30,258 bases of DNA from a virus: positions 1-30,258 of IMG/VR virus record IMGVR_UViG_3300033273_000049; one strand, given 5' to 3'. This document shows, one piece after another, positions 7,310 through 30,258 of this stretch. The position numbers and the translations under genes are program-made. Numbering within the stretch: the first letter of the stretch is position 1; each line of letters begins with the position of its first letter. Under the pieces are notes generated by a model, which saw only the letters and a list, made by a program, of their open reading frames with translations, had not been told where the DNA came from and ran no database searches.

Positions 7310-7746
7310 TTATAATTGATTTTGAATCTGACCACGCCAAAGAAATATTAGGTGGTTCGGTTAATGATGAAAAGATTAGACCACCCATTGAGGTTTCACA
7401 ATTTGTTGAACCAATGGTCGTAAAGAATATGGCATTTACTGGTGTTCTAAATGGCAAAATAATAGCTTGTGGTGGTATATACCCTATTTGGGATGGTGTA
7501 GGTGAAGCGTGGTTTCTTGGGACAGATATGGTCAATGAGAAGCCTGTAAGCGTCACTAGGACGGTTAAAAGTTATTTAGATGTATTGATGACCAATAATA
7601 ATTTACATCGTGTACAAGCTCATATTAGGCATGATTGGGATAGAGCTAACAGATGGATAGCTTTTCTTGGAATGCAAAAAGAAGGGGTTGTCAGGAAATT
7701 TAGTCCTGATGGTAGAGATCATATTTTATTTAGTAAGGTGATATAA
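7306..7746 (+). CDS. Internal virion protein A-like, GNAT fold (T7 gp13-like)
   Basis: A 146-residue protein with a GNAT acetyltransferase-like fold, judged from the beta-strand pattern NMAFTGVLNGKIIACGGIYP, then the EAWFLGTD segment and a VQAHIRHDWDRANRWIAFLG region (about residues 101-120). Proteins of this kind occupy the gp13 position in T7-like tail modules (DUF2833 family) and are needed for virion morphogenesis. Whether it acetylates anything is unknown; the typical acetyl-CoA loop Q/R-x-x-G-x-G/A is not evident. It overlaps both neighbours, by 4 bases at the start and 1 base at the end. Confidence 0.78.
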   Translation: MIIIDFESDHAKEILGGSVNDEKIRPPIEVSQFVEPMVVKNMAFTGVLNGKIIACGGIYPIWDGVGEAWFLGTDMVNEKPVSVTRTVKSYLDVLMTNNNLHRVQAHIRHDWDRANRWIAFLGMQKEGVVRKFSPDGRDHILFSKVI

Positions 7747-9868: not shown

Positions 9869-12693
9869 CAAGTTATTTAGACCAGATAGAAAATGATTAT
9901 GAAGCAGCTGAAACAGCTGCTTTTTTTAATATTGGCGTTGTAAATAAACCTGGAGAAAAAAAAGAACCAGTTGTGAATGAAACGGAATCAATTCCAGGAA
10001 CAATGGGACGTGCTGTTGTAAAGGGCGCAGTTAAAGGTATGACAGAAGCACCAATGAACCTAGCGTCAATTGTTGGTGCGCCAGTAGATATAGTTACAGC
10101 TGGTCTAAATAAAATTGGCTTTGATATTCAAAACCCAGTTATGGGAAGTGATTTTTTACAAAGTGGTGTGAAGGCAATTACAGATTTTGGAGAACAACTT
10201 ATTCCTAAATCATTGAATGTAAAATTTAATGAGTATCTCTCCAAACCCTATGACAATCAAATTACTGGCGCATTAACAGAAGCTATTACTCAATTTGGTA
10301 CAACAGCAATACCAGCGGCATCTTTTGTAAAATTAATTACTAATGCAAATCCTTTTACTAGATCATTGATGTGGGGCGGTATAGCCGATGCTACTGCTTT
10401 CAATGCAAACGACCAAACGCTAGTAGGTCAGTTATTGTCAAACCCTGAAGGCGTAGAAGATCAAGATAAAGAAGCGTTACGCGAAATGCTTATAGGTTTG
10501 TTTACAAAATACGAAGATGATCCTGAAGCTGTAAAACTTGCAAAGTCAGCTCTAGAGGGAATGGGCATAGGTGGTTTATTAGAAGCTTCATTTAAGATTG
10601 GAAGAAAAATACCTTGGAAAAGAGTTTTGCAAGGTGGAACTGTTGCGGCTGGTTCTATGGTTTCTAATGATGCTGAAGCTGGTGTAATTAGTAATATAAT
10701 AAACAGATTATCTAGGGCGGAAACAACAAAGCTCAAAGCAGATACTAAAACAACAAAAGAATATAATACTATTAGAGACGAAGCTCTTAGGGTGAAAAAT
10801 GAATACCCTGAAAACGAAGGGTGGCTTCCAATAAATATTGCAGCTGATAGTAAAAAGCCATCATTCAAAGTTGATAAAAATGGTAAGATAGATATTAGAT
10901 GGCAGCTTCCAGCATATGCTTTTCATATTCCTAATGTCAAAAATTTTGATAAACTTAAAGGTGATAAAAAAGCGGCAGCTGTTTCAACTCACAAATCTAA
11001 TCTTGTTAATAAGATGGTAAGTGATGTAAACGGTGTTCTTGAAAGAGCAAAGAATGGTGATCAGGCTGCAATAGACATTATCAACCAGGCTAACTGGTAT
11101 AGATCAATGAGATCTAGACTTAGAAGGGAGTTTGGTGGTTTGTCTGATGTATTTGCTGATATTATTGGCGCAACGTCAGCAATGACAAATGTACAACAAA
11201 ACTATGAAAATGCTGTTGAAGTTTTAAGAATGTTTGTCAGAGGTGACTTTGATCCTCAAATTGAAATGTATAAAAAAATAGTTGATGAGGGTGGTAGTGT
11301 AAGTTCAACAAGACTTACTTCAATGGCAAAAGATGAAAATGTTGATTTTGATCTTATAAGAAATGCATCAGGTAAATTATTTGGAAACAACAGCGCAGCT
11401 GCTACAACAGCTCTTCTTGATATGTTCAGGCAAATAAAACCTGGCAAATCTCCTAAAACAATTAATTTTACTGGTAATCTTATAGGTTTTGGTAATGAAG
11501 CTACAATAGATGTATGGGCGGCTAGATATCTAAGAGATGCGGCTGGATTACCAAGAATACCACCACCAGCAGAAAAAGCCGTGGCTGGTAAACATCTAAC
11601 TAAAAGTACTTTTGAAAATCCACAAATAGGTTCTGAGTTTGGTTTTGGACAAGAAGTATTTTCTGATGCTGCAAAAATATTGAATACGGAGGGCGGTATA
11701 AAAGCATTTAATCCTAACATAGGTGATATGGGTGCGGATGATCTCCAGGCAGTTGTTTGGTTTTTAGAAAAAGAAAAGTGGACTAAAAATGGATGGACAA
11801 CGAAAGCTGGTGAAGGCGGATCATTAGACTTTGAAAGTGTATATGGTGGATCATCTAATCCTGAAAGAGTAAAAGAGCTAAGATCAATAATTAACAGTTC
11901 TGCTTCAAGCGAAGCTGATAAAATCAAAGCAGCTGATGAATTAAAAACTTTAGAAGGATCACCTGAAAGAACAGTAATTGGTATTTCAAGAGAAAGACCT
12001 GGTGAAGTTCCAACTAATGTTCAGCAAGCAGATTTTTCAACAGAGGTTACAAAAGACATAAAAGATGATCCTACTGTGATGGGGTTTCAGGCAAATCCAA
12101 GTTTCGGATATTATGATCAAGCACTTGAAAGATCATTAAATTTTGAGGTAGTTACAAGAACAAACTTTAATCCTAAAAAACTTACAGATTCTGTAGTTAG
12201 AGCTGCACAAAAGTATAATCAAGAATCAACATTTATATCTAAAGTTGTTCCTGATGGCACGGTTGATGCTAGACCTGGTGCAGAAATATATTTTCAAAAA
12301 CGTACAAATGTTGACTTTGCACAAATGATTTCAGATATACTAAGAGCAAGAAATATTGATGGCTTTACATTCATAACTGATGCAAGGTATCAGGACAGAG
12401 CTGATATTATGGCATTAAGTAATGAACCAACAGCTGGACTAACTGGAGTTAGATTTCAATATATTCCTGAATTTGATGGTGCGTTTGATCCAGCTCGTGC
12501 AAAAGAAATATTTAAAGAAAAAGAAAAACAATTTAGAGATGTTTTAGAAGAAATATCAAAAATAGATGGAATTAGTTTTGCAGATGTATTATCATATGAT
12601 ACCCAGGTATTTAAAAGACCTGATGTAGAATGGATAAACGGTGGAGTTACTTATGACGAGTACTTTGGAAGAACAGCTTCAGGAGGAACTTGA
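9865..12693 (+). CDS. Large internal virion / ejection protein with unknown domains
   Basis: A 942-residue protein in the gp16-like position. N-terminal third: glycine/alanine-rich, possibly membrane-active segments (GRAVVKGAVKGMTEAPMNL, then VGAPVDIVTAGL). Middle third (about residues 400-580): a globular region with WYRSMRSRLRREFGG, FADIIGATSAM and NFTGNLIGFG followed by ATIDVWAARYLRDAAG, seen in large proteins of marine phages. C-terminal third (about 700-940): a mixed alpha/beta region with FEVVTRTNFNP and DGFTFITDARY. I recognise no catalytic signature; it may be a multi-domain polyvalent-type protein injected with DNA. Function is inferred only from order and size. Confidence 0.62.
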   Translation: MTSYLDQIENDYEAAETAAFFNIGVVNKPGEKKEPVVNETESIPGTMGRAVVKGAVKGMTEAPMNLASIVGAPVDIVTAGLNKIGFDIQNPVMGSDFLQSGVKAITDFGEQLIPKSLNVKFNEYLSKPYDNQITGALTEAITQFGTTAIPAASFVKLITNANPFTRSLMWGGIADATAFNANDQTLVGQLLSNPEGVEDQDKEALREMLIGLFTKYEDDPEAVKLAKSALEGMGIGGLLEASFKIGRKIPWKRVLQGGTVAAGSMVSNDAEAGVISNIINRLSRAETTKLKADTKTTKEYNTIRDEALRVKNEYPENEGWLPINIAADSKKPSFKVDKNGKIDIRWQLPAYAFHIPNVKNFDKLKGDKKAAAVSTHKSNLVNKMVSDVNGVLERAKNGDQAAIDIINQANWYRSMRSRLRREFGGLSDVFADIIGATSAMTNVQQNYENAVEVLRMFVRGDFDPQIEMYKKIVDEGGSVSSTRLTSMAKDENVDFDLIRNASGKLFGNNSAAATTALLDMFRQIKPGKSPKTINFTGNLIGFGNEATIDVWAARYLRDAAGLPRIPPPAEKAVAGKHLTKSTFENPQIGSEFGFGQEVFSDAAKILNTEGGIKAFNPNIGDMGADDLQAVVWFLEKEKWTKNGWTTKAGEGGSLDFESVYGGSSNPERVKELRSIINSSASSEADKIKAADELKTLEGSPERTVIGISRERPGEVPTNVQQADFSTEVTKDIKDDPTVMGFQANPSFGYYDQALERSLNFEVVTRTNFNPKKLTDSVVRAAQKYNQESTFISKVVPDGTVDARPGAEIYFQKRTNVDFAQMISDILRARNIDGFTFITDARYQDRADIMALSNEPTAGLTGVRFQYIPEFDGAFDPARAKEIFKEKEKQFRDVLEEISKIDGISFADVLSYDTQVFKRPDVEWINGGVTYDEYFGRTASGGT

Positions 12694-12838
12694 TAGCGGA
12701 AGGGATGAAAATTCTTTCATTGTCAAAAACCTAAGAAGACAAATAGAAGCAAAAAAATCAGGAAAAGGTTTTGCTGAGCTTTATATCACTGGATCTGCAA
12801 ACAAACCGACAAGTGAAAATAATTCACAAATGTCCTAA
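12653..12838 (+). CDS. Small conserved phage protein (SGRDENSFIVKNLRRQI motif)
   Basis: A 61-residue protein overlapping the end of the preceding ejection protein by 41 bases in another frame. A GGAG at 12643-12646 lies six bases before the ATG at 12653, which decides that start over the upstream GTG. The central motif, a run of acidic residues then SGRDENSF-V-K-LRRQI, occurs in very short proteins next to large ejection genes in other podoviruses, as far as I recall. The product is charged and helical. Function unknown. A terminator follows within 30 bases. Confidence 0.7.
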   Translation: MTSTLEEQLQEELDSGRDENSFIVKNLRRQIEAKKSGKGFAELYITGSANKPTSENNSQMS

Positions 12839-23917: not shown

Positions 23918-23971
23918 GTTTGCATTTTGTTTGCATTTTGTTTGCATTTGTTTGCATTTTGTTTGCATTTT
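23918..23971 (+). repeat. Left arm-site array: five GTTTGCATTTT repeats
   Basis: Five head-to-tail copies of the 11-mer GTTTGCATTTT start at 23918, 23929, 23940, 23950 and 23961; the third is one base shorter. Spacing of about one helical turn would put all copies on one face of DNA. The same unit occurs on the other side of the tRNA core. Confidence 0.92.
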
Positions 23972-24054
23972 TTCGAGGGAATCGGTGGGAACTCTATAGC
24001 CGTATTTCGCAGAATCCCTACCTTTTTACACCTCACGCATAATTTTTTTACGAA

Positions 24055-24099
24055 CTGTCACGCCGGAGGTCGCGAGTTCGAGTCTCGTCACTCTCGCCA
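24055..24099 (+). other. attP core: 3' half of tRNA-Asp(GUC)
   Basis: The bases read as anticodon loop CTGTCAC (24055-24061, anticodon GTC 24057-24059), anticodon stem 3' strand GCCGG, variable loop AGGTC, T stem GCGAG/CTCGT with loop TTCGAGT (24077-24083), acceptor 3' strand CACTCTC, discriminator G (24096) and encoded CCA (24097-24099). This is the layout of bacterial tRNA-Asp, including G73. The bases before the loop (ACGAA) do not pair with GCCGG, and no D arm or 5' acceptor strand is present. It is therefore not a working tRNA gene. The 3' half would restore the host gene after integration. Confidence 0.88.
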
Positions 24100-24169
24100 G
24101 AATTTTCCAAGTAAAATCAATAGTTTATCCCTCCAAAGACCTCTTCCAAAATTGATATAAATTATGCTT

Positions 24170-24202
24170 GTTTGCATTTTGTTTGCATTTTGTTTGCATT
24201 TT
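24170..24202 (+). repeat. Right arm-site array: three GTTTGCATTTT repeats
   Basis: Three perfect, abutting 11-mers begin at 24170, 24181 and 24192. They are in the same orientation and identical in sequence to the left array. Confidence 0.92.
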
Positions 24203-24266: not shown

Positions 24267-24329
24267 ATGAAAGATCTTAAAGTAAGATATTGGTAAGCAA
24301 GAAAGCATTGGGTTATTGATGCAAGGCGT
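24267..24329 (+). other. Integrase 5' extension broken by in-frame TAA
   Basis: An ATG at 24267 with a strong AAAGGGGAAG ribosome binding site opens nine codons (MKDLKVRYW) and then TAA at 24294-24296. The same frame continues without further stop through ARKHWVIDARR into the integrase. The continued peptide looks like the first strands of an integrase arm-binding domain. The stop is thus either a mutation, an error, or a recoding signal. Without readthrough, initiation must happen downstream, for example at GTG 24330 with only a weak AGG before it. Confidence 0.75.
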
Positions 24330-25415
24330 GTGGGTTACTCACACGCTCACGGTAAATTTTCATCAGAAGCAGCTGCGTTGAAAGAAGCTGAGTTACTCAA
24401 AGCTAAATTTATTACTGGTGCTATTGCAGAAAAAGTTGACGTGGTAAAAGTATCCCAGGCAGTTGATAAGTTTTATCATTACCAAACAACTAGAATAGAC
24501 AATAAAGAAATGTCTGTTTCATTTTTCAAAGAGATTAAAAAATCATTAGGTTATTGTTTGGGTATCAAGATTGATGGTAAAAAATTTTTAGATCAAAGTT
24601 TTGATATTATTAAAAGAGAAAACAAATCTGAATTAGTTACAGCTTTTGTAAAAGGTATTACTGACGAAGGTAAGTCTAAAGCTACAGCTGAGAAAAGAAT
24701 TAAGATATTAAAAATGTTTTTTAATTACTGTGATCTTAAAGGTTGGATTACAATGAATCCTCTTGATAAAGTTTCTTTAGGTATGTCATGGGAGATTGGA
24801 GATAGGGCGCCAAGAATACAGCCTGAGACAATTCAAAAGATTGTTAGTGAGGGATTGCCATCAGAAAGTATTTATGATCAGTGTATGGTTCTTACAGCTC
24901 TTGCAAGTGGCATGAGACAAGGTGAGCTACGTGCATTGAAGTGGGGTAATATTGATTTTGATAATCAGACAATCCGCATCGAAGGCGCAGTTAAGCATGG
25001 CACAATGATTATCGGTGACACTAAAACTAAAAGAGGTAAAAGAGAAATACCTATTGATGCAGCTACAATGAAGAAACTTAAAGAACTTAAAATTGCTTCA
25101 AAGTTTAGCGCACCTGGTGACATTGTTTTTGCAAGCTCAAACGGTACACCAAAAGCACAAAAGATATTAATCAAACTTATTAAAAGGGTTTGTGAAACAG
25201 CTGGTGTAAAGCCTATCCTATGGGGTGACATGAGACACTTTTATGCATCAGTACAGTTATCTAGCCTGGGTGAAGATTGGGCGGAAGTAGCTGCTCTTAT
25301 GGGGCATTCAAACTCTAACTTTACTTACAAGCAGTACGGTCATTATGTGAAGAATGAGCGCAAGCAGGCTAAAGCCAGAGAAGCAGCTGCTTCAGCAATG
25401 TATGGCGGAAACTAA
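24330..25415 (+). CDS. int: Tyrosine-family site-specific integrase
   Basis: From GTG 24330 the product has 361 residues. It has an N-terminal arm-binding part (SSEAAALKEAELLKAKF), a core-binding SAM-like helical domain (about 40-150), and a C-terminal catalytic domain. Catalytic residues are R196 (LASGMRQGEL), Lys 232/234 in a TKTKRGKREIP hairpin, R302 in GDMRH, H326 in LMGHS, and the nucleophile Y336 ten residues after it. The usual first His of H-x-x-R is G299. It would integrate the phage at tRNA-Asp using the adjacent attP. The 3' end overlaps the convergent excisionase-like gene by 4 bases. See the upstream in-frame stop. Confidence 0.9.
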   Translation: MGYSHAHGKFSSEAAALKEAELLKAKFITGAIAEKVDVVKVSQAVDKFYHYQTTRIDNKEMSVSFFKEIKKSLGYCLGIKIDGKKFLDQSFDIIKRENKSELVTAFVKGITDEGKSKATAEKRIKILKMFFNYCDLKGWITMNPLDKVSLGMSWEIGDRAPRIQPETIQKIVSEGLPSESIYDQCMVLTALASGMRQGELRALKWGNIDFDNQTIRIEGAVKHGTMIIGDTKTKRGKREIPIDAATMKKLKELKIASKFSAPGDIVFASSNGTPKAQKILIKLIKRVCETAGVKPILWGDMRHFYASVQLSSLGEDWAEVAALMGHSNSNFTYKQYGHYVKNERKQAKAREAAASAMYGGN

Positions 25416-25615
25416 TCCGCCATATCCATTTCAGATTCAATGCGTAATATTTCAGATTTAGGTATAAAATAAACTCTTGAATCTTTAATTGATTTTATTT
25501 TGCCGGTTTGTATCCAGCGATAAATTCTTTTTCTATTTGTATCGCCAAAATCACCAAACAATCTTATAGCAACCTCTTTAGGTCTTAATAAACTTCTACC
25601 TTCCAGGGAAGCCAT
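25412..25615 (-). CDS. Excisionase-like HTH DNA-binding protein
   Basis: On the minus strand, GGAG (25625-25622) lies six bases before ATG 25615, which I prefer over an ATG at 25621 that has no spacing to the site. The 67-residue product has a winged-helix motif of the MerR/excisionase HTH_17 kind: RPKEVAIRLFG, NRKRIYRWIQTGKI, then a VYFIPKSEIL wing. It is the last gene of the leftward operon, convergent with and touching the integrase gene. It would direct recombination towards excision, so it should be made when the leftward operon is derepressed. It could instead be a plain regulator. Confidence 0.78.
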   Translation of the reverse strand: MASLEGRSLLRPKEVAIRLFGDFGDTNRKRIYRWIQTGKIKSIKDSRVYFIPKSEILRIESEMDMAD

Positions 25616-25892
25616 GATCATCTCCTATAGGTGTTGTATTGCTTTGCAACATAGTCTTGCGCTCGTCAGGTAAAAAGAGATTAGCGCTTCCCATTGTTGT
25701 ATATGTGTCTATCTCTTTTCTTTGCAGCTGTATAGACGGTGATTTATTTGCTATGGCATAATACTTTTCAAGTTGATCAACTAAATCTTGATCGTCAATA
25801 TTAAACCAAAATCCAACTGAGATTTGATCTGTACCATTAATAGTTCCATTTAATCTCAATCTACTATTTTTCATATTAGGCGCTGATGGCAT
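25596..25892 (-). CDS. Hypothetical protein of recombination operon
   Basis: A 98-residue protein not recognised. N-terminal half is beta-like (RLRLNGTINGTDQISVGFWF), then an acidic helix (DDQDLVDQLEKYYAI) and a C-terminal region with PIGDDHGFPG. The ATG at 25892 has AAAGGAAAG just upstream. It overlaps the annealing-protein gene by 17 bases and the excisionase start by 20. It may assist recombination or ssDNA handling by context alone. Confidence 0.6.
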   Translation of the reverse strand: MPSAPNMKNSRLRLNGTINGTDQISVGFWFNIDDQDLVDQLEKYYAIANKSPSIQLQRKEIDTYTTMGSANLFLPDERKTMLQSNTTPIGDDHGFPGR

Positions 25893-27911: not shown

Positions 27912-27981
27912 ATTTTAAACAACCTCTGTTAACTATTAAATGGGTTTTAATAGTTTTGACAGTTGATGTTAAATATGTCAA
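27912..27981 (-). promoter_or_regulatory. PL-like regulatory region of the leftward operon
   Basis: The gap between repressor and exonuclease contains a perfect inverted repeat AACTATTAAA/TTTAATAGTT with a 5-base spacer (27931-27955). Beside it is a TTGACA/TGTCAA pair (27956-27961 and 27976-27981) separated by 14 bases. The minus-strand TTGACA at 27981-27976 is a consensus -35 box, but no good -10 at 16-18 bases is present, so the exact promoter is uncertain. TGTCA half-sites also occur around the repressor's own promoter. This is probably the operator for the recombination operon. Confidence 0.55.
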
Positions 27982-28583
27982 CTAATAATTTCGTATCCTA
28001 AAATATCAGGTCGTTCAATTCTCATAATTATTGGGCATGAGAAGATTAGTGTTTGGTCAGTTTCTGTAGCGCCACTAAAGCTTGTAAGTGTGAATTTGTT
28101 TCCTGGATTAGGGTAAACCGTTCTCTGTAAAATATTTCCTTCAATAGTTTTCACAATACAATTTTTACCCATGGAGGTTTGGGGAATGTTTTGATTTTGT
28201 ATAGGTCTAGTGTCTACTAATAATACTGAGTTATTTAAAAAGTTATTATATGATTCTCTTATATCTATGAATGCGCCTATGTATGGCGGAAATCTAAGCG
28301 AAGAGCTAAAAAACTGTTGTTTTTCAGAGGCATCCTTCATTACAACTTTGTTTGCTTCATATACTTTACCAAGTACATTTATCTTTATGTCGCTAAATAA
28401 AATTTGACTTGGATCAATGTCTAATATTTCCGCATAGTCTTCAGCATCTTGTATGCTAAACTGAGATCTGCCAGATACGTGCCTTGATAAACTTTCTGGG
28501 GCAATACCTTTAGCAGCTGCAACTTCAGCATGAGTAAGTCCTGCCAACCTAATTAATTTTTTTAAATTGTTTTTTACAGTCAT
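27978..28583 (-). CDS. CI-like phage repressor (XRE HTH, S24-like C-terminus)
   Basis: The 201-residue product has a helix-turn-helix at about residues 7-60 (LKKLIRLAGLTHAEVAAAKG, ESLSRHVSGRSQ) of the XRE/Cro-CI kind. Its C-terminal domain resembles the LexA/S24 beta fold: SVLLVDTRP (about 118-126), GKNCIVKTIEGNILQRTVYPNPG (about 138-160) and a final beta strand region. I cannot see the expected Ser...Lys dyad; the Lys position reads Q/R-T. It would keep the lysogenic state by binding the TGTCA-containing operators on both sides of its gene. Divergent from the Cro-like gene. GGGAG precedes the ATG by 9 bases. Confidence 0.82.
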   Translation of the reverse strand: MTVKNNLKKLIRLAGLTHAEVAAAKGIAPESLSRHVSGRSQFSIQDAEDYAEILDIDPSQILFSDIKINVLGKVYEANKVVMKDASEKQQFFSSSLRFPPYIGAFIDIRESYNNFLNNSVLLVDTRPIQNQNIPQTSMGKNCIVKTIEGNILQRTVYPNPGNKFTLTSFSGATETDQTLIFSCPIIMRIERPDILGYEIIS

Positions 28584-29331: not shown

Positions 29332-29639
29332 ACTGTACCAGCTGCGGCAAATCTACCCAGGTAAAAGATAGTAGATCACATGAAGATAACCAGGTTAGAC
29401 GAAGAAGGGTATGTATCAGCTGTAAAAATTCATTTTACACCCTAGAGACAAGAGAAACTGAAAAAATAAACGTGAATAAGCTCCGTAGAGGTGTTGATCA
29501 GGTTACTAGTGGTGTCATTAGACCTAAAAAGAAGAAAGTATTCTCAGCAAGGCGACAAGAGCCAAGAACAAGGTATGATGACTTTGAGCAGTTTGATGAC
29601 GATGATTATTTAGATTTAAAAGAGCTAGGAATAAAATGA
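29328..29639 (+). CDS. Zinc-ribbon protein, NrdR-like N-terminus
   Basis: The 103-residue protein opens with C3-x2-C6 and C29-x2-C32 flanking KDSRSHEDNQVRRRRVC, close to the zinc-ribbon of NrdR (C-P-x-C...V-x-D-S-R...R-R-R-x-C-x-x-C-x-x-R-F). The ATP-cone that follows in NrdR is missing; instead there are basic (RPKKKK) and very acidic (QFDDDDYLDL) tails. It could bind DNA or nucleotides; regulation of ribonucleotide reductase is not implied. Coupled to both neighbours (ATGA). Confidence 0.72.
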   Translation: MNCTSCGKSTQVKDSRSHEDNQVRRRRVCISCKNSFYTLETRETEKINVNKLRRGVDQVTSGVIRPKKKKVFSARRQEPRTRYDDFEQFDDDDYLDLKELGIK

Positions 29640-30258
29640 GACCTCATGTAGATCTATGCAGTGGTATTGGTGGCTTTGCACTTGGTTTTATTGCAGCAGA
29701 AATAACTGAACCAGTATTGTTTTGCGATTTTGATGAAAAAGTAAGGAAATTATTAAAGGTTAGATTTCCAGGCATACCTATAGCTAATGATGTAAAGGAG
29801 ATAGCAAGTGATCCAAGAAGATTTATTTATGAAAGACCCTTTATTCTCTCAAGTGGCTACCCCTGCCAACCCTTCTCGGCAAGTGGCAAAAGACGAGGGG
29901 AAGAAGACCCTAGACACATCTTCCCGCACATTGCTGAAATTGTTAAACAAACGAGACCCTCTTACTGCGTTTTCGAGAATGTTTATGGCCACATTTCTCT
30001 CGGCCTCGACAAAGTTCTTAGCCAAATGGGATCACTTGATTACGCCTCAGCGACATTTGTTGTTCCAGCTGCGGGTTTCCGCCCCCACAAAAGAGACAGA
30101 CTCTTGATCATCTGCAAGAACATGGCCGACCCCAACAACGAAGAAATTTGGTCATGCGAGCGAGGGTCAGACGTTGATAATGAGGGATCTAGTGGAGAGA
30201 GGAGAGCTGACGGAACAAGAAGCTCAAGCCATGATGAATGGCACGACACTCAGACCAC
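29636..30258 (+). CDS. C5-cytosine DNA methyltransferase (partial, runs off window)
   Basis: The frame is open from ATG 29636 to the window end (207 codons visible). Motif I DLCSGIGGFALG (6-17), motif II LFCDFDEKVR (28-37), motif IV GYPCQPFSASG with catalytic C77, motif VI FENV (E114), and motif VIII FRPHKRDRL (148-156) are in order. The target-recognition domain and motifs IX-X lie beyond the edge. It would methylate cytosine at C5 in phage DNA, usually as defence against restriction. The gene is AT-rich up to about 29,820 and clearly more G+C rich after, with more CCC/TTC/CTC codons. The start overlaps the preceding stop (ATGA). Confidence 0.9.
   Translation, partial: MRPHVDLCSGIGGFALGFIAAEITEPVLFCDFDEKVRKLLKVRFPGIPIANDVKEIASDPRRFIYERPFILSSGYPCQPFSASGKRRGEEDPRHIFPHIAEIVKQTRPSYCVFENVYGHISLGLDKVLSQMGSLDYASATFVVPAAGFRPHKRDRLLIICKNMADPNNEEIWSCERGSDVDNEGSSGERRADGTRSSSHDEWHDTQT

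Follow-up and report, generated by a model that had tools for sequence, protein, structure and literature searches.

A lambda-like attachment site in a predicted SAR116 podophage, with arm-type repeats that track residues 25-27 of the adjacent integrase

In phage lambda the attachment site carries the arm sites P1, P2 and P'1-P'3 and the IHF site H', and the heterobivalent Int contacts the arms through a small N-terminal arm-binding domain (eLife 2016, PMC4880445). Recognition of arm sites in systems of this type is difficult to dissect, since natural integrases diverge in all their parts together. In the cluster K mycobacteriophages, variation at one arm base was found to go along with Int positions 17 and 19 (Pope et al. 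2011, PMC3203893). The Mediterranean metagenomic phage groups G16 and G18 have been tied to SAR116 bacteria, in the account given of them, through their integrase and att sequences (Mizuno et al. 2013, PMC3861242), so that a phage-SAR116 link drawn from a tRNA-fragment attP is of a known kind. On the side of the host, cis-mobilizable elements of the CIME type have been defined (PMC5704250), and Dehalococcoides ssrA islands without an integration module have been described (PMC3146451).

The window, i.e. the whole 30,258-base stretch of viral DNA that was analysed, contains an attP of which the P arm (23918-23971, + strand), delimited from the repeat positions and by alignment with relatives, consists of five arm-type repeats, four copies of GTTTGCATTTT and one of GTTTGCATTT. 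Between these repeats and the core lies a conserved block, CGAGGGAATCGGTGGGAACTC (23974-23994, +), which is kept in the relatives with a tRNA-Asp core and in the host elements, and which is a candidate accessory-protein site. The core (24055-24099, +) is the 45-nt 3' half of tRNA-Asp(GTC), spanning the anticodon loop through CCA (CTGTCACGCCGGAGG...CTCTCGCCA). A match to the IHF consensus, AATCAATAGTTTA (24115-24127, +), lies immediately past the core within the P' arm, in a position like that of lambda H', and three further arm-type repeats (24170-24202, +) complete the P' arm. The initial annotation had proposed eight repeats in the same orientation, arranged as five plus three around the core with gaps of 83 bases on the P side and 70 bases on the P' side. 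Both the array and the gaps were confirmed, with the precision that seven copies of GTTTGCATTTT are exact (starts at 23918, 23929, 23950, 23961, 24170, 24181 and 24192) and that the eighth, at 23940-23949, is a 10-base copy with one T fewer than the 11-mer, the spacing being 11, 11, 10 and 11 in the P arm and 11 and 11 in the P' arm. All seven exact copies present in the window fall within the attP; shuffling gave an expectation of 0.06 exact copies per window, and seven copies were reached in 0 of 100 shuffles.

The attP lies directly upstream of the gene of a tyrosine integrase (24267-25415, +; 382 codons in the relatives), identified from its PF00589 domain (E 2e-23) and its PHROG category, integrase. 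In the window, codon 10 is an in-frame TAA (24294-24296) instead of the sense codon found in all relatives, and the longest open part starts from GTG 24330, a restart that would drop the first strands of the N-domain. Because of this TAA the function of the window copy is in doubt: it may be dead, or it may have been misread through a sequencing or assembly error. The model of the integrase fold has a mean pLDDT of 63, a low confidence overall. The N-domain modelled alone (pLDDT 77) consists of three strands and a helix, and its best match among solved structures is the lambda Int N-domain with P'2 DNA (2WCC), a weak one with Z 3.6 and rmsd 5.0; Foldseek with the N-domain returned no match. 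From a reading of the family alignment, the first His of the usual HxxR motif seems to be Gly throughout at position 320 (W-G-D-M-R-H). Phage records searched at the DNA level yielded nothing related to the attP-int region, and protein matches to the integrase were below 60% identity.

As for the phage itself, portal and capsid are similar to their counterparts in HTVC010P-type pelagiphages, with about 55% and up to 67% identity, and an endolysin gene is also present. A Cro/C1-type repressor (27978-28583, −) is consistent with a temperate phage, and a 69-aa HTH_17-like protein (25412-25621, −; PF12728, just under the curated cut-off) is a candidate excisionase (RDF). At its end (29636-30258) the window breaks off within a DNA cytosine methyltransferase-like gene, of which only the beginning is present, with a visible rise in G+C.

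Eleven relatives were drawn from IMG/VR, and the order repeats-core-repeats-int is kept among them. L001-L007, L011 and L054 retain the core, both arms and the P-arm block, with two repeats per arm. The core-proximal pairs of the window, i.e. two of the five P copies and two of the three P' copies, align without gaps with the pairs of the relatives, the remaining three P copies and one P' copy lying outside. Because most relatives have a 2 + 2 layout and the extra copies are core-distal, the 5 + 3 array of the window is an expansion; such growth happened more than once, as L084, with an open int frame, also has by inspection a 5 + 2 array. The earlier remark that eight repeats outnumber the five arm sites of lambda is fair as a count, but the number eight does not characterise the system, in which two repeats per arm are what is conserved. 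The distance from the start of the P pair to that of the P' pair is 220 bp in the window, L001-L007 and L108, and 221 bp in L085. The IHF consensus WATCAANNNNTTR is found at a fixed offset past the core, with no mismatch in 11 of the 12 phage attP and one mismatch in L084. Its conservation spans attP with different cores, namely tRNA-Asp in two versions and tRNA-Glu, and the site, placed between the core and the P' arm sites, is predicted to be an IHF bending site. Repeats that persist without the tRNA half, which the initial annotation had named as evidence against an attP, were found only in the decayed lineage L008-L010, with one repeat left and no core.

Beyond these phages, L108, the integrase of which is distant (about 30% identity), possesses an entire 2 + 2 attP: its repeats are GTAACCA, its core looks like a tRNA-Leu fragment in reverse, and YPK occupies the place of integrase residues 25-27. 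L109 and L113 carry GTACCCA pairs, with no recognisable relative of the window integrase beside either; in L109, near position 7556 on the reverse strand, the pair is followed by an apparent tmRNA 3' end, and this is probably a further attP that uses the same arm motif. The interval between attP and int holds differing small open reading frames in L002, L003, L006, L007, L009, L010 and L054, and appears as a spot for accessory genes.

The variable bases of the repeats are uniform among the copies within one phage and different between phages, the exception being one P' copy of L085 (GTACTCA). In a set of 16 integrases with six repeat types, which includes several close relatives, GTAGACA is found with SHY at integrase residues 25-27 (L001, L002), GTACACA with NNR (L003, L004, L006, L007, L011, L054), GTTAACA with SVN (L005), GTTTGCA with SHA (the window, L008-L010), GTACCCA with GNK (L079, L085) and GTACTAC with NDR (L084). 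In the window these residues, Ser-His-Ala, are encoded at 24339-24347 (+) and are candidate determinants of arm-site specificity. In the 384-column integrase alignment, no adjacent pair other than columns 26-27, and no such triple other than columns 25-27, maps one-to-one onto repeat type. The column-pair test, applied to related sequences, was picked after two others had been uninformative, and for this reason it is descriptive and not a significance test. A partial Mantel correlation of loop and repeat distances yielded p of about 5e-5, but was set aside as not specific for the N-domain, a segment near residue 196 having scored equally, and the strict requirement that every same-type pair be closer than every different-type pair was satisfied by no sliding segment of the alignment.

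Pairwise contrasts are stronger evidence than the column-pair test. Beyond position 33, 346 of 349 residues are the same in the integrases of L002 and L003, and yet 7 of the 12 loop positions are unlike and the two phages have different repeat types; those of L003 and L007, 89% identical outside the loop, have the same loop type and the same repeat type. Furthermore, SHA and GTTTGCA are common to lineages the integrases of which are 64% identical. For L009 and L010 the GTTTGCA repeat had been predicted beforehand, and one copy was found upstream in each, the rest of the attP being lost. At the level of sequence, the repeat tracks integrase residues 25-27 even between integrases more than 98% identical elsewhere, and this covariation indirectly supports the view that the N-domain of the tyrosine integrase would bind the repeats as arm sites.

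The assignment of the core to the 3' half of tRNA-Asp(GUC), and the proposal that an exact 45-base match would be found in bacterial genomes, were both borne out: the core is identical at 45 of 45 positions to tRNA-Asp in 33 stretches of contigs from the collected genomes, which carry the SAR116 cluster label with few exceptions. The complete tRNA-Asp gene is visible in the flanks of most of these stretches, and ARAGORN returned tRNA-Asp(gtc) in the tested loci that contain the 5' half. At four host loci integrated elements are bordered by an attL (tRNA, core and P' arm) and an attR (P arm and core) exactly as predicted. It had been anticipated that the matching tRNA-Asp genes would stand beside related prophages; no intact prophage was found by the integrase and portal searches of 136 order-level genomes, many of them partial single cells. 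The phage integrase was detected in 0 of 136 at E 1e-10, in a search run with a positive control, and the phage portal in 0 of 136, in a search run without one. Overall, the attP reading is supported by the int gene directly downstream, the exact core in the host, the layout kept in relatives and the attL and attR junctions in host genomes. A decayed P arm with a core near a flagellin gene (L066:2258-2460, G047) appears to be a fossil of the same att system.

Seven cassettes of 1.6-4.6 kb with phage-type attL and attR and no integrase are found in six SAR116 genomes, at tRNA-Asp, tRNA-Glu and tRNA-Pro. The cargo of those at tRNA-Asp is defence-like: they contain a 504-aa DndB-family protein (PF14072) and a 73-aa open reading frame (L033:572-2678 in G001, and L041:2082-4190 in G003), a protein with a trypsin-like domain (L045:1252-2826, G002), or GmrSD_N and AlbA_2 at opposite ends, the latter cassette having its two ends on two contigs of one genome (L022 and L020, G004). 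The cassette at tRNA-Glu(TTC) (L152:820-2999, G058) encodes a 620-aa protein without Pfam match and has hybrid arms, with GTTTGCA in P' and GTACCCA in P. Two tandem cassettes (L153:4167-10830, G092) lie downstream of tRNA-Pro(GGG), their cargo, as read from the translations, being a GAF-like protein and an ABC transporter operon. A small open reading frame located between virion genes of the window (12641-12838) resembles the 60-aa one of the GmrSD-AlbA cassette (L020:1289-1471).

In L033, L041 and L045 the order is tRNA, core, IHF-like site, P' repeats, cargo, P repeats, P block and second core, the P' repeats being partly decayed in L033 and L041. Sites without an insertion exist in close relatives, and an empty and an occupied site can be compared, since the flanks of L045 align to L043 (97.8% upstream, 92.8% downstream), from which the 1.57 kb in between are missing. 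The bodies of L033 and L041 are 98.7% identical, as opposed to 91.8% for the downstream flank, and their P' spacers differ, a contrast that suggests horizontal movement. By eye, a single base separates the P spacer of L045 from its counterpart in phage L005. The cassettes resemble phage-derived cis-mobilizable elements that would move between genomes. A generic arm pattern with one mismatch allowed matched in 16 of the 136 order-level genomes, many of these matches being chance-like because a reversed control pattern also matched several genomes; G058 and G092 are among the 16. The SAR116 hosts carry 4-6 other tyrosine recombinases, located away from the cassettes, which could in principle act on them; G092 is an exception, with a larger element upstream of the tandem cassettes that has its own, different integrase. 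Packaging of the cassettes by phages is unsupported, as the DndB-like and trypsin-like cargos had no match in IMG/VR and the tRNA-Asp P-arm block occurs in nine IMG/VR contigs, none of them new to the phage set except L054. The more distant DndB-like genes of SAR116 (L096-L098) are without phage arms. It may be tentatively proposed, with some reserve on our part, that SAR116 uses phage integrases as a shared cassette system, in which the integrase of an infecting phage would excise and insert integrase-less cassettes, each holding a single defence gene or operon, at tRNA genes, the code of residues 25-27 and arm repeats would set the pairing, and hybrid arms would answer to two phage types.

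With regard to the window, we are highly confident that it carries the attP of a temperate podophage, a distant relative of HTVC010P with a SAR116 host, that acts in a lambda-like manner, with the proximal 2 + 2 repeats as working set and the distal copies as later duplications, and in which repeats and residues 25-27 change together. The N-terminal domain of the integrase would hold the repeats in both arms, while IHF would bend the P' arm just to the right of the core. The catalytic domain would then exchange strands in the core so that the phage enters tRNA-Asp with its 3' end restored. The two core-proximal repeats per side would provide one site for each subunit of a presumed Int tetramer, the three distal P copies and the one distal P' copy of the window being later additions. 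As the variable bases and residues 25-27 change together, a new arm address would be acquired as a matched set.

The features of the window may also be explained by a dead attP, in which the TAA at codon 10 abolished int function and unselected slippage is lengthening the array. The absence of the TAA from all relatives, the core-distal position of the extra copies and the presence of a repeat already reduced to a 10-mer fit this explanation, which we deem possible and are inclined to doubt: past the TAA the int frame is intact for 361 codons with 93% identity to the relatives, the same variable bases are found in all eight repeats, a single-base assembly or sequencing error would look alike, and the 5 + 2 array of L084 coexists with an open int frame. 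The match between repeats and N-domain could instead be mere linkage, the attP-int segment being inherited whole so that any residue would seem to covary. Repeats and int are indeed adjacent, the six repeat types come from 16 integrases of which several are closely related, and the distance-based partial correlation was as high near residue 196. Such an origin is made improbable by the L002/L003 pair, near-identical after position 33 and yet different in loop and repeat type, by the reverse situation of L003 and L007, by the absence of any other adjacent column pair with one-to-one mapping, and by the SHA and GTTTGCA shared between integrases of 64% identity. That the repeats are repressor operators or iterons controlling int transcription is suggested by the P' copies, about 65-97 bp upstream of the int start, and is very hard to reconcile with repeats that flank the core at a conserved distance (P and P' pairs 220 bp apart), that are present as both halves of the array at host junctions without int, and that covary with the integrase N-domain; we give this idea almost no credence. 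By taking all this into account, the observation and interpretation of the initial annotation stand, to be completed by the 2 + 2 working set and by the interruption of the window int, neither of which had been noted.

The attP is of an ordinary, well-known kind, and the phage family is unusually informative: the natural specificity series and the integrase-less cassettes are what raises its interest. Because the family offers integrases that are almost the same except, for the most part, in one loop and in their arm repeats, the recognition code becomes testable with a handful of substitutions, and the cassettes suggest a way in which ocean bacteria with small genomes may acquire and shed individual defence genes at tRNA sites and be spared the cost of a recombinase.

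Like that of lambda, the window attP has a core flanked by arm sites, an IHF-type site between core and P' arm and an adjacent tyrosine integrase. Unlike that of lambda, its core is a tRNA half, its repeats are in one orientation and in tight 11-bp tandem, the basic set is 2 + 2, here 5 + 3, and no Xis or H1/H2 sites were identified in it. As in the cluster K mycobacteriophages CrimD, Anaya, Adephagia and Pixie, the last with a six-copy array, 11-bp arm repeats vary with N-terminal residues of the integrase (PMC3203893); in cluster K, however, it is mainly one base that varies, in four phages, whereas here there are six types differing at several bases, residues 25-27, and integrases up to 99% identical elsewhere. 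G16 and G18, which are unrelated to HMO-2011, similarly have an integrase and a tRNA-fragment attP that exactly matches SAR116 (PMC3861242); as far as the description of that work goes, the attP serves there to name the hosts, and arm repeats, covariation and host cassettes are not part of it (PMC3861242). For the cassettes, the closest known concept is the CIME (PMC5704250), a possible mobilisation by a helper element having an indirect sign in their presence and absence between close relatives. Like CIMEs, they retain attL and attR and have no integrase; unlike CIMEs, their att arms are of phage type and not derived from ICEs or IMEs, and each holds, in its 1.6-4.6 kb, one cargo gene or operon.
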